A stretch of DNA of 46,112 nucleotides from a virus (IMGVR_UViG_3300005530_000011:1-46112); one strand, 5' to 3'. Shown: positions 3,101 through 26,286, counted from the first letter of the stretch. Program-made: numbers and translations. The notes: a model not told the origin generated them from the sequence alone.

Positions 3101-3887
3101 CGCGACCGCCGTGCTGACGGGGCCCTTCACCGGCGACACGAAGGGCGCCGCCGTCGCGGGGCTGCTGCGCGTCGCGGGCATGGCGAACCCGTACCTCAAG
3201 CTGCCGTGGGAGGAGCTGGCTAACAAGAGCGCCTTCTACCGCGACGAGATCCAGCCGACCGGCAACCAGTGGACCCGGCCGCCGCAGTGGGCGATCAAGC
3301 TGGCCAAGACGAACGCGCACTTCCGCGATCTGATGGGCATGCGGCCCGACGTCGAGATGAACGACGGCAAGGGCCCGGAGTGGGGCTGGAAGCGCAAGAC
3401 CGACTACTGGGTGCGGCAGATGGGCCCGGGCGCGATCACGCCCCTGCTCGACGTGCTCGGGCAGGGCATCAAGGGCACCAACGCACGCGCTCAGACGAAG
3501 GAGCAGCGGCTGCTCGCAGCGCTCGGCCTGCGCACCTCCAAGTACGACCCGCAGATGGTCGAGCTGGCGAACCTCTACCAGATCGACGACGCGCTGAACT
3601 CGAAGCTCAACGAGCTGCGCGACACGGCCGGGCTCGACCCGTCTGAGCCCAACAGCGCCGACAACGCGACGCCCGCCTATCGCAAGCTGCTCGACGAGGA
3701 GTCCGCGACGCAGAAGAAGATCAAGGCGCTGCAGGCCAAGACGCGCCAGGGCGGGCTCGTCAGCGGCAAGCGCCAGACGTCCACGCCGAGCGGTAGCGGG
3801 CTCGACGTCGGCAGCGATGTGCAGCTCGGGGGCGACGTGACGCTCGGGCCTGACGTGCAGCTCGGGCCCGGCATCGACCTGCGCTGA
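3..3887 (+). CDS. Giant internal virion / DNA-ejection protein, C-terminal 1294 residues
   Basis: This is the main part of a protein that begins at 45681 and crosses the contig ends; the joined product is about 1402 aa. The visible N-terminal half is rich in Lys, Arg and Ala and looks like long charged helices. Near joined residue 1050 there is the segment LRRVAPFYTFSARNIPLQ, a signature I associate with giant polyvalent or internal virion proteins of podoviruses. A C-terminal low-complexity tail carries GxDVxLG-type repeats. It is the third of three consecutive Ala/Gln/Lys-rich genes (43577, 44524, 45681) placed after the tail genes, like the gp14-gp15-gp16 ejectosome order of T7. No lytic transglycosylase motif was recognised in it. 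The role in DNA delivery is inferred from position, size and composition. Confidence 0.7.
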   Translation: MAAEGLARASKGTLKTGRIFGHKVPFTRDASGANLTKGYKLTGKSNAQLAEIIDATKAKDPQKALQGLSSLNAKKMREASALPTPAGKKILDIVSRPIHAEAGAVSAAIAHKNVKKAAVAGLKGKGQTTFGDVLRQLGVKGKAASIGGFIADVGLDPTTYLTGGESSLARESAVASAKAAAKEAEKTALKSALERGETVADAKKLAKARGRSAAASKLREAERKAEQGPARATTPGITVKVAGKRLPGVTRATSKVRHVTGEAASRAADVLPERAQKKVAQTRAGTRNLGAIANANVRRAGVTKAQQREIKGLSREARAQSEKATRHLNARVNALVGRLKTDEQKTVIDAIERGRISDLKGRAPALRRSLRPGRNVGRQDPDRLFIAAKRIADDLKYSRRLGAHSGLITGRVGRGSRTAQQSWLLAHGNTRSTGTLNKVQQELNTAGKELADARREMKAADSAKEHILARRKATAAKQRFDNLTAKRDAIKSEQVTAQAVKRGQQVEQRERFGYRPRETKAQRAKRQASGASRPDVLGTEARGYFPRITKAEQEGKAGRGVLARLAQPLSDQVRPATEQVGSNKPDIAAGKQRELRGTRAQILTDPKNAHSVERLTSDVRASLGHYGASVAKGSAASDLNTRIVQQLGTPLKGRYRNLSKRDFDELADQGKSVYRVRRGQLEKVTDYNTAHKASLGERRMEHPTRPGTYVPAPKAATTKAGKVADSRALPSGGQYAILRDEDVAAVRNRLPGQATGIGHVLDVPTNVFKRVALGTPAYLVRNLVGDTYNAWTDERFWRLVRNQIRGQKALSALGHQERALGKFQLAVPESKKTITLTDAQAKAIGDALGMDPTKVSRKMKASAVAGLAEQMGVIRQGRFLELMNEGRTLTRPRGTHAWDAAVKRVEDSTRLATFLGGLQRGLNPREAAARASEVHFDYGDLTPVERRYLRRVAPFYTFSARNIPLQVRRTLTNPGKIATVEKGREEGQKGTGLPADYLSKLNPYEATQLGIPLKMGGKTFTVSMGAPFTDLNDATAVLTGPFTGDTKGAAVAGLLRVAGMANPYLKLPWEELANKSAFYRDEIQPTGNQWTRPPQWAIKLAKTNAHFRDLMGMRPDVEMNDGKGPEWGWKRKTDYWVRQMGPGAITPLLDVLGQGIKGTNARAQTKEQRLLAALGLRTSKYDPQMVELANLYQIDDALNSKLNELRDTAGLDPSEPNSADNATPAYRKLLDEESATQKKIKALQAKTRQGGLVSGKRQTSTPSGSGLDVGSDVQLGGDVTLGPDVQLGPGIDLR

Positions 3888-5408: not shown

Positions 5409-6496
5409 GCTACGACGCGCCCTCGAAGTACAAGGGCACCGGGACGTACGGGGTGCTCACCGAGGCCGAGCAGACCACCTACGACGAGTACACGAACCTC
5501 AGACGGATCTCGGACTGGCCGGGCTTCAGCACCGACCAGGACCAGCGCCGCGCCGACTCGCGTACGTGGATCACCGACCGCATGGCCTACCTCGTGCAGC
5601 TCGCCAACGGCCAGGTCTCCGGCCAACCGGCCGGTTGGGACACGAGCAACCGAGGCAAGCGCTACGACTACCTCTCGACGCTCAACACCGGCGCCCCGAA
5701 GCACGAGGTCCGGCTGCCGTGCTCGGGCTCGGCGACCAACAGCGAGAAGAGCTACATCGAAGAGCGCGAGGTCTACCTCGCGTGGACGTCCGCCTACGAC
5801 GAGCAGAAGGCGCGCAAGCAGGCCAACGTCGACTGGCTCGTCAACCAGCGCAAGAAGCTCTGGCACCTGATGCAGGACGACGCGTCCAAGAACGACAGCA
5901 ACGACCGTCAGACGCGCTACGACAACCTCTGCATCGCGACGCACCACGGCAAGGTCTACGACGACTGGGCCGAGACGCACAACAAGTGGGGGCAGCCGTA
6001 CACGCCCTCGTCCGGGGGCTCGAAGACGGGCCGCTCGGCGTGCAAGGACTGGCTCGACGCGCAGCTCGGGATCAGCGAGAACCCGCCGAACTCGAACACC
6101 GGCAACCCCCAACCATCCGGTTGGCAGGAACGCGTCTACGGCGACGACGGCGTGCCGTGGTGCGCGTGCTTCGCCGTCTGCTCGGCGTGGGACAACGGCG
6201 TCACCGGCTCCGGCACGGCGAGCGTCTACCAGAACGTCCAGATGGCCAAGCGCGGCGAGGGGATCTACCGGGGCTGGACGAACGACCCGAGTCAGGTCCA
6301 CGCGGGCGATCACGCCTTCCTGGGCTCAGATCACACGGGCGTCATCTACGACCGCGACACGGGCATCACCGTCGAGGGCAACACGAGCCCCGGATCTGAG
6401 GGCTCCCAGTACAACGGCGGCTGCGTCGCCAAGCGCAACAGGGGCTGGTCGGCGTGGACGGCAGGCTTCGGACTCGTGAGGTTCCCCGATGACTGA
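5405..6496 (+). CDS. Endolysin with C-terminal CHAP-type amidase/peptidase domain
   Basis: The product is 363 aa. The GTG at 5405 overlaps the holin stop as GTGA; the frame is open further upstream but that part is antiparallel-style shadow of the holin gene. Residues 1-215 are hydrophilic and helical with no recognised domain. The last 150 residues have the CHAP pattern: VPWCACFAVC near residue 250 supplies the catalytic Cys, and GSDHTGVI near residue 307 supplies the His. CHAP domains cleave peptidoglycan amide or cross-bridge bonds. The role is host lysis at the end of infection, using the holin just upstream. The long N-terminal region is unusual and may bind the cell wall. Confidence 0.8.
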   Translation: MSYDAPSKYKGTGTYGVLTEAEQTTYDEYTNLRRISDWPGFSTDQDQRRADSRTWITDRMAYLVQLANGQVSGQPAGWDTSNRGKRYDYLSTLNTGAPKHEVRLPCSGSATNSEKSYIEEREVYLAWTSAYDEQKARKQANVDWLVNQRKKLWHLMQDDASKNDSNDRQTRYDNLCIATHHGKVYDDWAETHNKWGQPYTPSSGGSKTGRSACKDWLDAQLGISENPPNSNTGNPQPSGWQERVYGDDGVPWCACFAVCSAWDNGVTGSGTASVYQNVQMAKRGEGIYRGWTNDPSQVHAGDHAFLGSDHTGVIYDRDTGITVEGNTSPGSEGSQYNGGCVAKRNRGWSAWTAGFGLVRFPDD

Positions 6497-14728: not shown

Positions 14729-14790
14729 TGCCAAAGTGTGCGGATCTCGTGCTACCGTGGCACTCCCTGCCGGGGGCAAGCGACCCCGGC
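14729..14790 (+). promoter_or_regulatory. Integrase promoter and leader hairpin
   Basis: TTGCCA (near 14731) and TACCGT (near 14756) with a spacer of about 19 nt form a plausible promoter. It is followed by the hairpin GCCGGGG (14769-14775) / CCCCGGC (14784-14790), which lies 6 nt before the start-associated sequence of the integrase. The same hairpin stem precedes the AAA+ ATPase gene on the minus strand. Confidence 0.45.
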
Positions 14791-14796
14791 GCCAAG

Positions 14797-14810
14797 CGAA
14801 GGGAGAACAC
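14797..14810 (+). promoter_or_regulatory. Start-associated sequence (SAS) of integrase
   Basis: CGAAGGGAGAACAC directly precedes the integrase ATG. This is the only + strand copy. It matches, over more bases than a ribosome site needs, the sequences before the minus-strand genes at 20426, 22260, 23293, 24180 and 25678, with close variants at 19739, 21548, 22699 and 25392. Confidence 0.8.
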
Positions 14811-20426: not shown

Positions 20427-20443
20427 GGGGTGTTCTCCCTTCG

Positions 20444-20563
20444 TTAGATCAGATGGATGATCGTCACCACGACGAGCGCGATGACGTACAGGTCGACCAG
20501 CACTTCTCCGAACCACCAGGCGCCGAACAGCACGGCGCCCAGACCGGCACAGATCAGCAGCAT
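20444..20563 (-). CDS. 39-aa membrane protein
   Basis: The ATG at 20563 has GGGAG 7 nt upstream. The peptide (MLLICAGLGAVLFGAWWFGE, then VLVDLYVIALVVVTIIHLI) has two short hydrophobic segments or one long one, with Trp at the interface. Its TAA lies directly before the start-associated sequence of the next gene. It is shorter than usual gene-finder limits. The function is unknown. Confidence 0.55.
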   Translation of the reverse strand: MLLICAGLGAVLFGAWWFGEVLVDLYVIALVVVTIIHLI

Positions 20564-20608
20564 CTACACTCCCTCGGGCATCGGTGGAATGTTCTCCCTT
20601 CGGTGTAC

Positions 20609-20652
20609 GAGGGCCCGGCACCGCCTCGCTAGCGGACTGATGCCGGGCCCTC
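20609..20652 (-). terminator. Large hairpin upstream of SAS copy
   Basis: GAGGGCCCGGCA and TGCCGGGCCCTC form a perfect 12-bp stem around a 20-nt loop that itself can pair CCGC with GCGG. It lies 13 nt after the stop of the gene at 20666, and a start-associated sequence (20602-20590) follows. There is no T-run, so termination is uncertain; a processing or attenuation role is equally possible. Confidence 0.55.
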
Positions 20653-20665
20653 ACTTGTTCTGAGA

Positions 20666-20887
20666 TCAGCCGCCCAGATCAGCGGCGCGGGCGGCTTCCT
20701 GCCCGGCGATCTCGATCCGCGACAGCACGTCGTGGTACTTGGCCGCCGCCTCAGCCAGCGCGGGCGCCATCGCGGAGGTGGCCTCCTTCGCCGCCTCCTC
20801 GCAGTCGCGGGCGACGTTGGCCAGCGCGGTGCGCACCGTCCACTCGTCGTCCTCGGTCAGATGCACAGCCCAGCTCGGGACGCTCAC
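20666..20887 (-). CDS. Small helical protein, function unknown
   Basis: This 73-aa product is called from GTG 20887, which overlaps the previous stop as GTGA; the longer frame to 21148 is a shadow. It is almost fully helical and Ala/Glu-rich (DCEEAAKEATSAMAPALAEA). No family was recognised. Confidence 0.55.
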   Translation of the reverse strand: MSVPSWAVHLTEDDEWTVRTALANVARDCEEAAKEATSAMAPALAEAAAKYHDVLSRIEIAGQEAARAADLGG

Positions 20888-21207
20888 TTCAGCCACCCTG
20901 CGACGTACAGGTAGCCGTGGCTGCCCTGCGCGTTGCCGACGATGCGGCCGGTCTCGTCCTCGTACAGGACGTGCTCGTAGTTCTGCTGCGGGAACATGCG
21001 CCAGCTCTTGGCGAGCGCCGCCGCCTCGGCGAGGGCGGCCCTGACCGCGCCGCCGTTGAGCCACGCGATCAGACGGTCCTTGGCGGGACCGGCGATGTCT
21101 TGCCGGTCGTGCACCATGTCGTTCGGGTAGATCCAGCGCGCGCCCCACGCGGTGTCGACCTCGTCGGGGATCGCGCGGACGGCGCCGAAGCTGAGCGTCA
21201 CGCTCAT
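20884..21207 (-). CDS. Small protein, function unknown
   Basis: This 107-aa product is called from ATG 21207, overlapping the previous stop as ATGA. Its centre contains WGARWIYPNDMVHD and its C-terminus YEDETGRIVGNAQGSHGYLY, beta-rich and aromatic. No domain was recognised. Confidence 0.55.
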   Translation of the reverse strand: MSVTLSFGAVRAIPDEVDTAWGARWIYPNDMVHDRQDIAGPAKDRLIAWLNGGAVRAALAEAAALAKSWRMFPQQNYEHVLYEDETGRIVGNAQGSHGYLYVAGWLK

Positions 21208-21548
21208 CCGCGCATCCAGTCGCGCACGCGGACGGCGCGGTAGGCGCCGTCCGTGGTGTGCAGCTCGTAGTTGAAGCTCTCGCTCAGCGCGAGCGCGTCG
21301 GCCGTGGTGACGAGCACCTTCTTGCCGGTGATCCTGTCTCCGTGCAGCGTCGGCGCCATGATGACCGGCACCAGCGCCGTGCCGTCGTTGCCGATCTGAA
21401 TCGGCGACTGGCGGTCCAGCCAGATCAGACCGTCGTCGGTCCGGTCGGGGTTCTCGCCCGACTCGTCCGCGATGAACACGCGGTCGACGCTCGGCTCGGT
21501 GAACAGACGGTGCCCACCGGGCAGCGTCTCCAACAGCTTCCAGCTCAT
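21204..21548 (-). CDS. Small beta-rich protein with SAS
   Basis: This 114-aa product is fixed by the start-associated sequence (CGAAGGGAGAACGC) directly before ATG 21548; the frame extends upstream without signal. It alternates short strands (HRLFTEPSVDRVFIADESGE, GLIWLDRQSPIQIGNDG). The function is unknown. A conserved hairpin element precedes it at 21573-21623. Confidence 0.6.
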   Translation of the reverse strand: MSWKLLETLPGGHRLFTEPSVDRVFIADESGENPDRTDDGLIWLDRQSPIQIGNDGTALVPVIMAPTLHGDRITGKKVLVTTADALALSESFNYELHTTDGAYRAVRVRDWMRG

Positions 21549-21572
21549 GCGTTCTCCCTTCGCTACGTGGCG

Positions 21573-21623
21573 GGATTGCCACTGGACAGCGGCGCGCAGG
21601 TGCACGCCGCTCTCCGGTAGCCC
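21573..21623 (-). repeat. Conserved hairpin element, copy 1
   Basis: On the minus strand GGGCTACCGGAG and GTCCAGTGGCAATCC enclose an inner stem AGCGGCG/CGCCGCT. The outer parts GCTACCGGA and TCCAGTGGC also pair with one mismatch and one wobble. The outer arms are identical to those at 22282-22333, while the inner stem differs in sequence yet still pairs. It lies between the stop of the gene at 21629 and the SAS of the gene at 21548. Confidence 0.7.
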
Positions 21624-21628
21624 GTCCC

Positions 21629-21895
21629 TCAGTCCTGCGTCGTCAGATGCTCGTAGAAGGCCCGCATCTGAGTCGCGGCGTCCTCCCAGGTCCGGGCCGT
21701 GATCGCGTACTCGTCGCGCAGCGCCTTGACCGTTGGGTGCAGCTTGCCGACGCTCGGCAGGAACATCCCGTGCTTGGCCTTGAACTCTGCGTTCTGCGTG
21801 TGCACGAGCATCCGCAGCAGGTTGAGCGTGCGCACCTTGCCGTCCGGGAACTGCACCCGGACGTCGGCGCTCGGAAGGTTGCCAATCGTCGGCAT
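21629..21895 (-). CDS. Small protein, function unknown
   Basis: This 88-aa product is called from ATG 21895, which shares TAATG with the previous stop and has GGAGGA 9 nt upstream; the GTG at 21901 would be too close to that site. The core reads PSADVRVQFPDGKVRTLNLL then MRAFYEHL. No family was recognised. Confidence 0.55.
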   Translation of the reverse strand: MPTIGNLPSADVRVQFPDGKVRTLNLLRMLVHTQNAEFKAKHGMFLPSVGKLHPTVKALRDEYAITARTWEDAATQMRAFYEHLTTQD

Positions 21896-22260
21896 TACCA
21901 CGTCTCCTCCTTGACGATGTTCCCGGCCTCGTCCATGACGATCAGGCCGCCCATCGGCAGCCCGAACGGCTTGGCGTGCTCGCCGAAGACCAGCTCGCCG
22001 AGCTGATCGCAGTACACCTGCTCCAGCTCGCGACGCTCGCCGCGCTGGAAGATCACGACCGAGTACAGATCCGGACCCGGCAGGTACGTGACGTGCGCGT
22101 CGAGCGAGCGCTCGTCGTTGGGCTCAGACGGCAGCACGCGCACCAGCAGCGTGTCCCCACGCAGCGGCGCCATGCCGACGTCCTTGCCCGGCGTCAGATC
22201 GGCGGGCAGCATCGAATCGAGCTGCGCGCAGATCGTCTGATGAACCTCGTTCGGTTCCAT
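21895..22260 (-). CDS. Small protein with SAS, function unknown
   Basis: This 121-aa product starts at ATG 22260 directly behind GAAGGGAGAACAC. It contains AQLDSMLPADLTPGKDVGMA and a beta-rich centre (LDAHVTYLPGPDLYSVVIFQ). The C-terminus FGLPMGGLIVMDEAGNIVKE resembles immunity-like or adaptor folds only superficially. The function is unknown. Confidence 0.6.
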   Translation of the reverse strand: MEPNEVHQTICAQLDSMLPADLTPGKDVGMAPLRGDTLLVRVLPSEPNDERSLDAHVTYLPGPDLYSVVIFQRGERRELEQVYCDQLGELVFGEHAKPFGLPMGGLIVMDEAGNIVKEETW

Positions 22261-22281
22261 GTGTTCTCCCTTCTAGCGGCA

Positions 22282-22333
22282 GGATTGCCACTGGACGGCG
22301 TCGCCGCAACGCGACGGCGCCCTCCGGTAGCCC
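22282..22333 (-). repeat. Conserved hairpin element, copy 2
   Basis: The outer arms GGGCTACCGGAG and GTCCAGTGGCAATCC are the same as in copy 1 (21573-21623), with a different inner stem that still pairs (GGCGCCGTC with GGCGACGCC). It lies 1-2 nt after the stop of the gene at 22335 and directly before the SAS of the gene at 22260. Confidence 0.7.
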
Positions 22334-22334
22334 A

Positions 22335-22523
22335 TCAAGCCAGGTCGGCGAGCACGGCCGCCAGCGCGATGCTGGCGACCGTCAGACCGAACAGGATCGG
22401 CGTGTAGCCCTTCGCTCGCGCGAAGCCCTCGTCATCGGCGTCGTAGCGGTACCAGCCGAACGAGGCAAGGTGCAGCACGAGCGGCAGCACGGCCGCGACG
22501 AGCACGACCCACGAGGGGGTCAC
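22335..22523 (-). CDS. Two-helix membrane protein
   Basis: This 62-aa product has transmembrane segments at about residues 5-23 (WVVLVAAVLPLVLHLA) and 43-60 (ILFGLTVASIALAAVLA), joined by a charged loop with YRYDADDEGFARAKGY. GTG 22523 overlaps the previous stop as GTGA. It could be a superinfection-exclusion or other moron-type membrane protein, inferred from topology only. Confidence 0.6.
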   Translation of the reverse strand: MTPSWVVLVAAVLPLVLHLASFGWYRYDADDEGFARAKGYTPILFGLTVASIALAAVLADLA

Positions 22524-22699
22524 CAGATCCGCTCCGTCGTGCCGCCGCCGGTGATCTCGAACTCGCCGTCCTCCATGACGACTTTCAGATCGGCGCCGAC
22601 GCCCGGCTTGGAGATCGTCACGGCGCCCTCCTCGTCATCGTCGATGCGGTTCAGCAGCTCGCACAGAGCGCGCGCCTGCTCGTAGCTCATGTTGAGCAT
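22520..22699 (-). CDS. 59-aa acidic protein with SAS
   Basis: ATG 22699 is preceded by CGAAGGGAGACACG, a close variant of the start-associated sequence. The product (MLNMSYEQARALCELLNRID, then a DDEE cluster and beta strands ending GGTTERIW) is coupled by GTGA to the membrane protein that follows. The function is unknown. Confidence 0.6.
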   Translation of the reverse strand: MLNMSYEQARALCELLNRIDDDEEGAVTISKPGVGADLKVVMEDGEFEITGGGTTERIW

Positions 22700-22713
22700 C
22701 GTGTCTCCCTTCG

Positions 22714-22899
22714 TCAGACCAGCCGGAGCTGATCGGGGTTCTTGCTTGGAGCGGGCATCCAGCCCTCGTACATCTCGTACGTCTCGAACAGGCCCGTCTG
22801 CTCGTTGAGCCAGACGTTGCCCTGCGTCTGAGCCTTCGTGAAGGCCCGCGCGGAGGCGGCCAGCGCCGCCTCGCCCTTGCGCTTCAGCTCAGACGTCAC
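22714..22899 (-). CDS. Small protein, function unknown
   Basis: This 61-aa product starts at GTG 22899 overlapping the previous stop. It is helical at first (KRKGEAALAASARAFTKAQT) and ends with YEMYEGWMPAPSKNPDQLRL. No family was recognised. Confidence 0.55.
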   Translation of the reverse strand: MTSELKRKGEAALAASARAFTKAQTQGNVWLNEQTGLFETYEMYEGWMPAPSKNPDQLRLV

Positions 22900-23084
22900 T
22901 GCGGGAAGGTCTCCAGGTGGAAGACCTCGCCGAGCGCGGCCGTCTGCGTGCCGTAGCCGAAGATCTCGACGTCCATCGGCATCACCATGCTCCAGCGGGT
23001 CTCGCCGGTGCGCAGCATCGCCAACGGCGGAAGCGCCATCAGCGCCTCCACGGCGGCGTTCTCGCGCCGCTTGTCATCGCTCAT
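22896..23084 (-). CDS. Small protein, function unknown
   Basis: This 62-aa product starts at ATG 23084 (ATGA overlap); GTG 23090 is an alternative. It contains AAVEALMALPPLAMLRTGET and VEIFGYGTQTAALGEVFHLE. It is coupled to the genes on both sides. The function is unknown. Confidence 0.55.
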   Translation of the reverse strand: MSDDKRRENAAVEALMALPPLAMLRTGETRWSMVMPMDVEIFGYGTQTAALGEVFHLETFPQ

Positions 23085-23293
23085 CCCCACAGCGACGTCG
23101 ACCCCTCAGACGAGATCGCGTAGCGCTGCTGCTCGCCGTCACGAGTGACGATCGAGATCACGAGGAAGCCCTCGGGATAGGGGTTGTCGAGCGAGTCGCG
23201 GCGCGACAACTGGACGGACGTGACGAACCCGGGCGAGTCGATGTTGCGCACGAGCGCTTCGACCTCCTGCTCGTTGAGCGTCAGATAGTCCAT
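23081..23293 (-). CDS. Small protein with SAS, function unknown
   Basis: This 70-aa product starts at ATG 23293 behind GAAGGGAGAACAC. It has an acidic helix (YLTLNEQEVEALVRNIDS) and a beta-rich remainder (GFLVISIVTRDGEQQRYAIS). Two short hairpins precede the SAS. The function is unknown. Confidence 0.6.
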   Translation of the reverse strand: MDYLTLNEQEVEALVRNIDSPGFVTSVQLSRRDSLDNPYPEGFLVISIVTRDGEQQRYAISSEGSTSLWG

Positions 23294-23342
23294 GTGTTCT
23301 CCCTTCAGACGCTGATTTCGGCCCTCCATAGGCCATCGTCAG

Positions 23343-23402
23343 GACCCCGGCTAGGGGTCGATCAGCAGCGGCGCGAGCCGCGCTCTCAGATCGAGAGCGC
23401 GG
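23343..23402 (-). terminator. Hairpin pair at the end of the vWA-like gene
   Basis: CCGCGCTCTC and GAGAGCGCGG (23378-23402) form a perfect 10-bp stem with a 5-nt loop that spans the stop codon of the gene at 23386. A second stem, GACCCC/GGGGTC (23343-23359), follows downstream on the minus strand. No T-run is present, so partial termination or mRNA-end protection is a guess. Confidence 0.5.
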
Positions 23403-24180
23403 CCAGCTTGCCGTCCATCATCTCCCTGGGGAAGTGGCGAGCGTGCGCGTGGCACGCGACCGTCAGGACCCGCGCCTCCTCATCGAAGCGCAGATCCCAG
23501 CCGGGCGCGATCGACGCGCCCATCGAGCGGTGGCATCGCACGCCATGCTCGCGGCAGCACATCATCCGCGCCGTGAAGCCCAGCATCCGGTACCCGGCGG
23601 GGCTGAAGAGCGCCCCCCAGGACTTCAGCGAGGAGCGCTTGCCGAACCGCTTGACGCGGATCTCGGTGGAGACCTTGCGGCCCTCCATCGTGACGTCTGA
23701 GAAGACGTCGATCTGCAGGTCAAAGCTCTGACCCTGCAGACCGGCGATCAGCTCCGCGACCCACTGGCCATAGTCGGCCAGCACGGACGCCGGGACGTCG
23801 GCGAGGAAGTTGAACTGGAGCCGCAGCGTCACACCTGCCTGACGCTTGCGTTTGTCGCGCCTCAGATACGGGCGATCGTCGCCCTGCAGCATCAGCTCGA
23901 CGTCCAGATCGCCGTCGAAATCGTTCCGGCGGATCTTGGCGCGGTCGATGACCGGCCGTCCCGGCTTGACGTCCATGCCGGGAGCGATGAAGCCGTTGTC
24001 CACCCAGCCCGTCATGTCCGCGACGCGCGCCCCGTAGAACTCCGGACGCGTCCGCCAACCGGCGAGCTGAACGTCATACGGCTGCCCGACGAGCTTGCGC
24101 CCGTCGTGGCACAGTGCGCGCCACGTCTGAGCTACTTCGTCGTAGCCCATCGTGTGCGAGATCGCACCCTTGGTAGCCAT
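23386..24180 (-). CDS. Probable vWA-like partner of the AAA+ ATPase
   Basis: This 264-aa product starts at ATG 24180 behind a perfect SAS. The middle (GVTLRLQFNFLADVPASVLA, then YGQWVAELIAGLQG, then SFDLQIDVFSDV) follows the strand-helix-strand rhythm of a von Willebrand A domain, but the DxSxS metal site is not intact. Cys/His clusters follow (MMCCREHGVRCHRS, ACHAHARHF). It is directly downstream of a MoxR/CobS-type ATPase, and MoxR ATPases usually work with a vWA protein, which supports the pairing. The client could be a host enzyme, a virion complex or a defence system; nothing in the sequence decides this. Confidence 0.5.
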   Translation of the reverse strand: MATKGAISHTMGYDEVAQTWRALCHDGRKLVGQPYDVQLAGWRTRPEFYGARVADMTGWVDNGFIAPGMDVKPGRPVIDRAKIRRNDFDGDLDVELMLQGDDRPYLRRDKRKRQAGVTLRLQFNFLADVPASVLADYGQWVAELIAGLQGQSFDLQIDVFSDVTMEGRKVSTEIRVKRFGKRSSLKSWGALFSPAGYRMLGFTARMMCCREHGVRCHRSMGASIAPGWDLRFDEEARVLTVACHAHARHFPREMMDGKLAALSI

Positions 24181-24202
24181 GTGTTCTCCCTTCGTTGTGG
24201 CT

Positions 24203-24257
24203 AGGAGACGGCCGGGAATCGGACCCGGCTGGCGCGCCCCCGTAGGGGCGCGCCTCC
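24203..24257 (-). other. tRNA-like double hairpin between ATPase and vWA-like genes
   Basis: On the minus strand GGAGGCG and CGTCTCC can pair as a 7-bp acceptor-like stem. Between them lie a hairpin CGCCCC-TAC-GGGGGCG and a T-arm-like hairpin GCCGGGTCCGATTCCCGGC. There is no room for D and anticodon arms, and the loop has C where tRNAs have the second U. It may be a tRNA-like structure, a relic, or two adjoining hairpins. Confidence 0.35.
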
Positions 24258-24264
24258 CTGCGCC

Positions 24265-25392
24265 TCAGACGCTCGCGTTGGCGAGCGCTACAGCGTCCTC
24301 CACACGTTCGTCGTAGCGGATGTGCGCACGGCCCATCCGCAGGCGATCGAAGGTGGAGAAGTCGAACGGGTTACGGGCGTTGTACTGCCGATCGGCGCCC
24401 GTGCCGTCCGTGTTGCCCGCGAAGATCAGGATCGTCTCAGACGACTTCATGTAGGTCTCCTGATCGACCGGATTGTCAAGCCGCTCGTTCGCGAGCGGCC
24501 CGTTCATGACCAGCAGCATGTTCGGGTCTGCGGCGTCCGCCTCATCGAAGAGGTACACGCCGCCGTCCCGCCAAATCTTCAGCAGCTTGGTCGGCTTGAA
24601 GCCCTGAGCGTCCACGCGGCCGAGGAGCCACGAGACGGTTGCGCCTTCCGTCATCGGCGTGAAGCCGAAATCCACCCCGCGTAGCTCCGCGAGCTGTTCG
24701 GCCCAGTAGGACTTGCCCATGCCCGCCGGACCGTAGAGGTAGATCGCCACCCGGGCCCGCACGAGGCAGTCCAGATAGGCGTCCATCCCGCCGGGGTGGT
24801 CGGTCATGGGATCGTAGGCGCGGATGCCCGCCTGACGGCGGTCCGCGTCATCCCAGTGCATCGTCATCGCGTGCACGCATCCCTCAACTGAGATGCCCGC
24901 CGCGATCATCCGCATGCCGTCCTTGACGGGACGGTAGGAGATGTGGTCGATGTCACGGTCCGTCGCGAAGGCCCGCAACCGGCGGACCTCCGCGAGAAAG
25001 CGCGTCTGAGCCGCAGAAAGCCCGCCTGACGGCTTGGGAGCCGCCGGGGCAGGCTTCGGCTTGGGTGCCGCCACGGGCGCCGCAGACGGCGTTTCCGTGA
25101 CCGTGCCGCCCAGTGACTCGCAGATGTAGGCGTGAACCTCGTACGCGAAGCGCACGAGCCGCTGATCGGCGATGTCCGGTGCGACGTCGACCCAGACGCC
25201 ATCCCGCTTGGTGCGGAAGACGATCGGTCGCTCACCCATACGCGGACGCAGAGCGTCCGCGACCGCCTCGCACGAGGCGCAATCGCGGCGCGAATGCGGC
25301 GCATGGGTCAGACCCAGCGTCGCGAACATGTCGCGATAGGCGCCCTGCTTGTGCGTGACAGCCCAGGACTGAAAATCACCGCTCAGCGGCAT
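24265..25392 (-). CDS. MoxR/CobS-type AAA+ ATPase
   Basis: This 375-aa product starts at ATG 25392, fixed by the start sequence GGAAGGGAGAACGG and a hairpin just upstream. The N-terminal 120 residues carry a possible zinc pair (CASC with an upstream His) and an Ala/Pro linker. The AAA+ core has Walker A GPAGMGKS (near residue 230), Walker B GGVYLFDEADAAD (near 280), the sensor-1 segment ILIFAGNTDGTG and an arginine-rich FDRLRMGR. This matches the MoxR/CobS branch, which remodels protein complexes together with vWA partners. The next gene is such a candidate partner. Confidence 0.75.
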   Translation of the reverse strand: MPLSGDFQSWAVTHKQGAYRDMFATLGLTHAPHSRRDCASCEAVADALRPRMGERPIVFRTKRDGVWVDVAPDIADQRLVRFAYEVHAYICESLGGTVTETPSAAPVAAPKPKPAPAAPKPSGGLSAAQTRFLAEVRRLRAFATDRDIDHISYRPVKDGMRMIAAGISVEGCVHAMTMHWDDADRRQAGIRAYDPMTDHPGGMDAYLDCLVRARVAIYLYGPAGMGKSYWAEQLAELRGVDFGFTPMTEGATVSWLLGRVDAQGFKPTKLLKIWRDGGVYLFDEADAADPNMLLVMNGPLANERLDNPVDQETYMKSSETILIFAGNTDGTGADRQYNARNPFDFSTFDRLRMGRAHIRYDERVEDAVALANASV

Positions 25393-25410
25393 TTTCCGTT
25401 CTCCCTTCCA

Positions 25411-25429
25411 GCCGGGGAGCAACCCCGGC
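25411..25429 (-). repeat. Leader hairpin of the AAA+ ATPase gene
   Basis: GCCGGGG and CCCCGGC pair around a 5-nt loop, a few bases upstream of the start-associated sequence. The stem is identical to the one before the integrase SAS (14769-14790), with a different loop. Confidence 0.6.
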
Positions 25430-25504
25430 CGTCGTGTGATCCTGCGCGAAACCGAGCAGGCGGCACGGCTCCCTGAGCGGGTAGCCGTCCCGTCCGACCG
25501 AATC

Positions 25505-25678
25505 TCAGATGTACGGATCGAAGCTCACGGCGTCCGACGTCCACCCTTCGGGTGCGTCGCATTCGTCGTCGCGCTTCAGATCGCGAGCGGCAGCCCGCGT
25601 CATCGCCCGATCGAAGGCCGCGAACAGGTCCGCGTGATCGGGGCTGGTCACCGCGTATTCGACGCCGTGAACGTGCAT
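25505..25678 (-). CDS. 57-aa protein with SAS, first gene of minus operon
   Basis: ATG 25678 is preceded by CGAAGGGAGAACACC. The product (MHVHGVEYAVTSPDHADLFA, then AFDRAMTRAAARDLKRDDE) is helical and charged with no recognised domain. It is the most upstream gene of the block that runs to 17847. Hairpins TCGCCGG/CCGGCGA and GCGCC/GGCGC lie upstream of its start sequence. Confidence 0.55.
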   Translation of the reverse strand: MHVHGVEYAVTSPDHADLFAAFDRAMTRAAARDLKRDDECDAPEGWTSDAVSFDPYI

Positions 25679-25694
25679 GGTGTTCTCCCTTCGT

Positions 25695-26286
25695 TGGTCT
25701 CGCCGGAGCTACCGGCGACGCGCCTACGGCGCAGTGGACGGGGGAGCATCGAAACTCGCCCTAGCGAGCCGCCCAGTCCGATCGGGCGCCGAAGCGCAGG
25801 TGATCGGGTGCGGCTCTCGCCCCGGAACTCAGTCGATCGACACGAGAAGCGGGAGAAGTGCCCTCGTGGATCTCGCAACGGTCGGCGTTGGGTCCCGACT
25901 CGCTCACGTAGTGAGGTGACCGTGGAGCTGCCCTCCACAGTGCTGCCATGACTAGGCCCGGTGCGTCACGACGGCTATACCGCCTTTCTGGTGCCACGAC
26001 AGGGGATTCATGCTGCCCTGCCTAGGCGACGCCCTGCATCCGGGGTCACGCTGCGCGGCGTCGATCGCCGCTATGTCAGCTCCGCTTCCCGCACCTTGCA
26101 GAGAGGCGGGGGAGCCGCTTCGGACCGATGTGGCGCTGCTCGTGCTGAGTCTGAGGCGCTGCGGTCCGGCTTGCCCATTCAGTAGAGCACGGGCACCGGG
26201 AACTCACAACCCCTTCCGGAAGAAATGGCGCACAAACACTCGGTCTGAGGTGTCTGAGATCGGCGGTCCCTACGGGAGGGAGGCGG
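25695..26286. other. Gene-free interval between divergent blocks
   Basis: About 590 bp separate the first minus-operon gene and the + gene at 26287. No frame in it reads like a protein. It contains short hairpins (25700-25732; CTCGCCCTAGCGAG near 25755) and a weak minus-strand promoter candidate (TATAGC near 25974). It probably holds the promoters of both blocks; a replication origin or packaging site cannot be excluded. Confidence 0.5.

Follow-up and report, generated by a model that had tools for sequence, protein, structure and literature searches.

Between two early genes of an uncultured virus lies a small tRNA-like RNA element, hereafter a mini-tRNA, in which an acceptor stem adjoins a T-arm with no anticodon arm. 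Its structure and covariation, its intergenic place, its recurrence in unrelated phages and the tRNA-like positions conserved among the copies from cultured phages are all shown here. As the best explanation, to which we give a probability of roughly 0.55, we propose from this anatomy that the mini-tRNA is a natural minimal substrate of RNase P that would process polycistronic early mRNA; we infer both the cleavage and its effect on expression. In phages of several bacterial groups the element closely follows a stop codon, probably to have the message trimmed there by a host enzyme that cuts tRNAs.

The window, meaning the whole stretch of DNA that was analysed, is a 46,112-base uncultured virus record in which tail genes and genes for an integrase, terminase, portal and major head protein were identified. 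Its early block runs from about 26 to 18.7 kb on the minus strand and comprises small genes, mostly of unknown function, and one AAA ATPase gene; a promoter scan of the window found no promoter. Repeated here is the 11-base motif GAAGGGAGAAC (SAS), with nine exact copies in the window (eight on the minus strand and one on the plus strand upstream of the integrase gene) against a chance expectation of about 0.02 for an 11-mer in 46 kb on both strands. Each copy, as located by motif search, stands shortly 5′ of a start codon or of a short leader:
14798–14808, plus strand: SAS, exact
20432–20442, minus strand: SAS, exact
20591–20601, minus strand: SAS, exact
21551–21561, minus strand: SAS, exact
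22263–22273, minus strand: SAS, exact
23296–23306, minus strand: SAS, exact
24183–24193, minus strand: SAS, exact, downstream of the tRNA-like element
25398–25408, minus strand: SAS, exact
25682–25692, minus strand: SAS, exact
By base pairing, the motif would match eight bases of the usual 16S rRNA 3′ end, so the best reading of it is as an SAS-type extended ribosome-binding site. An earlier sequence-only reading of this DNA had described a repeated unit of stop, hairpin, SAS and start, and this order holds at most SAS sites but fails at 22702 and 20432, where SAS directly follows the upstream stop. The SAS at 20591 is followed by a very short frame (MPEGV) and then by a 35-residue membrane-like protein (window 20458–20601, minus strand).

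Two related contigs served for comparison, and both contain SAS. One is L129 (IMGVR_UViG_3300025912_000223), an 18.6-kb contig found by terminase searches and carrying a syntenic block; the other is L008 (IMGVR_UViG_3300036857_000345), which was found by the SAS pattern and holds the ATPase gene, the next gene and two SAS copies. The SAS pattern matched 22 contigs, among which L008 alone is related by protein; L008 was also the sole match in a search with the 264-residue protein of the block. No DNA-level relatives of the block were found in the phage collection, and protein searches of the genome contigs returned nothing. Set aside were the matches from ATPase protein searches, which were mostly unrelated AAA ATPases, and a 34-kb candidate (G001) without the early block of the window. 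L129 has the hairpin and SAS that go with window 20458–20601, though it lacks the 35-residue small gene.

The tRNA-like element lies at the junction of the ATPase gene and the gene for the 264-residue protein, with the following features:
24265–25392, minus strand: AAA ATPase gene (phrog_249 match), upstream of the element
24204–24257, minus strand: tRNA-like element, with acceptor GGAGGCG/CGUCUCC and a long inner hairpin at the place of the D-arm
24211–24229, minus strand: its T-arm, GCCGGG-UCCGAUU-CCCGGC, found by descriptor search
23386–24180, minus strand: gene for a 264-residue protein of unknown function, downstream of the element, with orthologues in L008 and L129
L008, 6822–6864: orthologous gap at the same junction
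L129, 9977–10020, minus strand: orthologous gap at the same junction
The gap hairpin at 24204–24257 was absent from the hairpins listed in the sequence-only reading. At this one junction, the window, L008 and L129 all show an acceptor stem adjoining a T-arm and no anticodon arm, with the T-loops TCCGATT, TCCGATT and TTCGACT, respectively. All 13 pairs of the window copy stand, and among the three phages eight pair positions change on both sides (two in the T-stem and six in the acceptor), all pairs being standard; the flanking proteins are 29–60% alike, and the gaps are otherwise unalignable. The T-arm descriptor gave a single match each in the window and L129 and two in L008, where 0.2 matches are expected per 46-kb strand, and this expectation falls to 0.017 when an acceptor of at least 6 bp is added. 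ARAGORN and Rfam reported no tRNA for the element, and a cloverleaf with an anticodon arm is absent from it. The window copy has the acceptor stem abutting a T-stem with its T-loop, though the acceptor is thermodynamically weak, with pair probabilities of at most 0.12 and a cost of 5 kcal/mol for forcing it in a model without tertiary contacts. This copy is atypical as well in its C at T-loop position 55 and in a 10-bp inner hairpin in competition with the acceptor. R73-C74 after the acceptor is absent in the window, L008 and L129 copies, one of which is present per phage, and the L008 gap folds no better than its shuffles (z −0.2). Trained on Streptomyces phage copies, a covariance model (R1) matched L129 with an E of 0.001 in its own contig, and left the window and L008 unmatched (linker too long, T-loop variant). 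We provisionally assign the L008 copy to the mini-tRNA class by position only, and the window copy by position and through L129.

Two side observations belong to this junction and its relatives. The 3′ strand of the window acceptor (GUCUCCU) can also pair with SAS (AGGGAGA; window 24183–24210, minus strand), and SAS might be released when the tRNA-like element folds. In the block leader of L008 (5205–5256, plus strand), a second T-arm-like hairpin (GATCGGGTGCGAACCCCGATC) follows an anticodon-arm-like hairpin, and no tRNA was called there.

A search with the L129 element matched unannotated gaps of cultured phages, and the same mini-tRNA was recognised in gaps of Streptomyces phages Joe and Sujidade, Gordonia phage VanLee, and mycobacterial and pneumococcal phages. 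It is unannotated in these genomes, and Rfam contains no such family. Its anatomy consists of an acceptor of 5–7 bp, a linker of 8–20 nt with GG, a T-stem of usually 6 bp and a T-loop; in several VanLee copies, the linker itself is a small D-arm with the GG in its loop. In Joe, all eight gaps of at least 79 nt within the first 5 kb of the early block carry a mini-tRNA, seven of them 6–15 nt after the stop, and in VanLee the element occupies the coding strand of 15 of the 17 gaps of at least 40 nt, with none on the other strand. Covariation in the acceptor and T stems is strong: thirteen equal-length Streptomyces copies are 100% paired, with a covariation score of 0.58 versus 0.16 when shuffled. 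For 30 distinct copies (L129 and the mycobacterial, Gordonia and pneumococcal phages included), the score is 0.60 versus 0.14, to be read with the caveat that this alignment was fitted to the structure. A further fitted alignment (A7, E ≤ 5) was left out since it included spurious matches, as were three MAFFT alignments (A4, A6 and A8) from the pair counts, some of their acceptors being out of register. Among 41 copies from cultured phages, bases beyond those demanded by the descriptor are conserved as well, namely the linker GG and T55 (each 41/41), R73-C74 (40/41), G1 (38/41) and A-1 (32/41).

In pneumococcal phages, the mini-tRNA occupies one locus, and a T-stem pair there has gone from G-C to A-T. 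In Streptococcus phage V22 (900–938), it overlaps the stop of an early gene and is followed by a small stem-loop; this copy is conserved in pneumococcal phages, and 37 Streptococcus records matched, including EJ-1. The contig L020, unrelated by protein, has a mini-tRNA at 3271–3315 (minus strand); a stop lies 10 nt upstream of it, and a U-tract terminator follows immediately. Neither phiC31 nor TM4 matched R1, the tRNA cluster of phage GodonK gave no match to the mini-tRNA model, and Bongo gave only weak ones; descriptor matches in three further records (L012, L067 and L051) are doubtful. In the papers readable without subscription, our literature search found no report of such elements. As far as this literature and Rfam show, the mini-tRNA is apparently an as yet unnamed class of small tRNA-like RNA.

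The remaining hairpins of the block vary more in form:
20609–20652, minus strand: 12-bp hairpin after the gene end at 20666, with an L129 counterpart at 6449–6494 (minus strand)
25411–25429, minus strand: GCCGGGG/CCCCGGC hairpin before the SAS of the ATPase gene, from folding
14769–14790, plus strand: GCCGGGG/CCCCGGC hairpin before the SAS of the integrase gene, from folding
21573–21623, minus strand: first of two elements with shared arms, inner 10-bp stem, from comparison and folding
21567–21582, minus strand: possible second arm of this element, from folding
21617–21621 with 21562–21566, minus strand: its possible outer pair, GCUAC with GUAGC, from folding
22282–22333, minus strand: second element, same arms and a different inner stem, from comparison and folding
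22275–22292, minus strand: possible second arm of this element, from folding
That hairpins stand between the genes of this phage, as first observed by the sequence-only reading, is confirmed, and its interpretation is partly supported. The 12-bp stem at 20609–20652 is borne out (fold z −5.3), and its L129 counterpart, which stands after the orthologue of the same gene, has C-G in place of G-C as its third outer pair and another inner hairpin. The stems at 14769–14790 and 25411–25429 are indeed the same 7 bp, with different loops; in L129, the SAS of the integrase gene is present, and no hairpin of the GCCGGGG/CCCCGGC type appears there in the fold.

The elements at 21573–21623 and 22282–22333 had been described as sharing outer arms while their inner stems differ and still pair. 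Indeed, the arms GGGCTACCGGAG and GTCCAGTGGCAATCC are exactly identical in both, and the inner stems, as read from the folds, differ yet pair in each copy (fold z-scores versus shuffles of −5.1 and −3.3, respectively). Between the copies, three inner pairs are changed on both sides, and a pair formed in the first copy gives way to a C.A mismatch in the second; the compensation, though real, is thus modest. The claim that compensatory change reflects a selected RNA structure is nevertheless supported, mainly through the hairpin at 20609–20652 and the element at 24204–24257, in both of which the covariation proposed as a check was found in related phages. With no third copy having both arms in the window, the pair amounts to two copies in one genome; the element is absent from L129 and L008, and a gapped-pattern search of viral contigs found no homologue. 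A weak arm pair in L129 (11284), with 3 and 4 mismatches, was not convincing as a homologue. In layout, a hairpin plus a second arm with an outer stem closing one copy, both elements resemble the mini-tRNA, but we do not file them in that class because they have no T-loop. We infer that the other hairpins of the block, this pair included, are likewise RNA 3′-end or processing structures. Each gene block had also been proposed to be an attenuated or processed cassette. Attenuation finds no support, as a scan for U-tract terminators gave two hairpins versus 1.8 expected, neither of them an element of the block, and no window element shows the hairpin and following U-tract of an intrinsic terminator. 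Processing fares better, given the tRNA-like anatomy, which points to RNase P. The cassette idea finds partial support: the element, SAS and gene at 21204–21548 have no L129 counterpart, and the flanks of this segment are abutting genes there, though the gene below 22282–22333 does occur in L129 without the element. The stretch at 21204–21626 (minus strand) looks like a gain or loss of a whole unit relative to L129.

For the pair at 21573–21623 and 22282–22333, a two-state RNA switch was considered, the 5′ arm and a downstream strand adjoining SAS being alternative partners of the 3′ arm. With its natural downstream sequence, each copy does have two mutually exclusive folds of similar energy (−44.8 versus −41.7 kcal/mol for the first and −37.7 versus −37.8 kcal/mol for the second). 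However, alternative folds are common in GC-rich RNA, SAS is clearly hidden by neither of them, and the viral contigs, L129 and L008 offer no homologues, which makes such a switch improbable. A broader alternative takes the elements for transcription terminators or 3′-end stabilisers, stable hairpins after the stop that terminate the transcript or hold off 3′ exonucleases and resemble tRNA by coincidence. It agrees with their start a few nucleotides after stop codons, with the great stability of the GC-rich window hairpins, and with the further stem-loop that follows some elements (in L020, a U-tract terminator). Neither a terminator nor an exonuclease block, though, would need the conserved T-loop, linker GG, G1 and R73-C74, and the window elements are without U-tracts; we regard this account as possible, if rather unlikely.

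The tRNA likeness itself could also be read in two other ways. The part of a tRNA that the CCA-adding enzyme, EF-Tu and modification enzymes recognise is its top half, and the mini-tRNA might itself be the product, a small RNA engaging such factors as a decoy or signal, with the cutting of mRNA secondary. The conserved R73-C74 would suit this role, whereas the strict intergenic placement just after stops, the many different copies per genome and the lack of a general G3.U70 for alanine charging (G-U at pair 3 in 2 of 30 copies) speak against it, and we think it quite unlikely. Least expected, and very improbable in our judgement, is that the elements are left over from old tRNA genes or from attachment sites and persist by chance. 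Phages do carry tRNA genes, among them one complete tRNA-Arg in VanLee, but decay would break the stems, and what is seen instead is compensatory change among as many as 15 copies in a genome, each on the coding strand and each lacking the same arm.

Under the preferred reading, in which RNase P processes the early mRNA, the gaps of the block carry RNA elements a few nucleotides after the stop codon and before SAS, a site that fits message cutting between genes. In the clearest of these, an acceptor stem would stack on a T-arm, a short D-loop-like linker or hairpin replacing the D and anticodon arms, and the mini-tRNA would act like the acceptor/T-arm model substrates of RNase P. Host RNase P would cut the polycistronic early transcript just 5′ of the acceptor stem and free the upstream message with a trimmed 3′ end, separated from the downstream gene, whose SAS would then drive its own translation; the excised mini-tRNA may undergo further trimming. 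More widely, we see an even chance that a large, unnamed class of anticodon-less mini-tRNAs punctuates the early operons of many Actinobacteria and Streptococcus phages, with single copies in window-related uncultured phages and a Bacteroides phage, making host RNase P a processor of polycistronic mRNA as mitochondrial tRNA punctuation does. Such punctuation of polycistronic messages by tRNAs is familiar from mitochondria, and phages seem to have reduced the tRNA to its RNase P-visible part and to have placed it serially after stop codons. If true, this would explain the regularly spaced 80–100 nt gaps in many annotated actinophage genomes, would provide dozens of natural minimal RNase P substrates, and would open the old question of how neighbouring genes on a shared transcript are kept apart by phages to testing in cultured phages such as Joe and VanLee.

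Among known systems, the SAS/ESAS of Cluster K mycobacteriophages (PMC3203893) and Microbacterium cluster EF (PMC7302621) resemble the window in being a conserved ribosome-binding-site motif of many small genes, and the window SAS likewise stands directly before many starts. About half of the Cluster K and EF SAS are preceded by an inverted repeat (PMC3203893, PMC7302621). The Cluster K consensus GGGATAGGAGCCC, however, differs from the window motif GAAGGGAGAAC, and its 17-bp imperfect inverted repeat is conserved in sequence, whereas in the window only two copies share arms and the other hairpins differ. ESAS inverted repeats, moreover, keep their sequence around spacers that vary, and mRNA hairpins were considered improbable for them, in contrast to the window, where pairing is kept by compensatory change. 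The CR3/CR4 repeats of Cluster M (PMC7953290) show a comparable order of stem-loop, conserved repeat and gene, and insertions there bring a gene plus repeat; our sequence comparison with Cluster M covered Bongo only, with its weak model matches. RNase P cuts hairpins of acceptor, T-stem and T-loop at the tRNA site and contacts RCC(A) (PMC11143913); these model substrates have the same anatomy, though they are synthetic and the phage elements are natural, repeated and intergenic. Similarly, mascRNA/menRNA (RF01684) and the plant mitochondrial t-elements are tRNA-like RNAs at an RNA end or within a transcript, and RNase P acts on mascRNA and the t-elements inside longer transcripts by cutting them (PMC4919922), but they are eukaryotic. 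RF01684 is the nearest Rfam model, with 26.2 and 21.3 bits in Joe and Sujidade, respectively, below its gathering cut-off of 42.5. The tRNA-like domain of tmRNA has a tRNA top half, a D-loop-like stretch and no normal anticodon arm; the mini-tRNA, in contrast, is without a tag reading frame and a general G3.U70, and ARAGORN found no tmRNA. Also comparable, by description, are the phi80 M3 RNA, the P1/P7 C4 RNA and the T4 gene 32 mRNA, single cases of phage-borne RNAs cut by host RNase P (PMC11143913).
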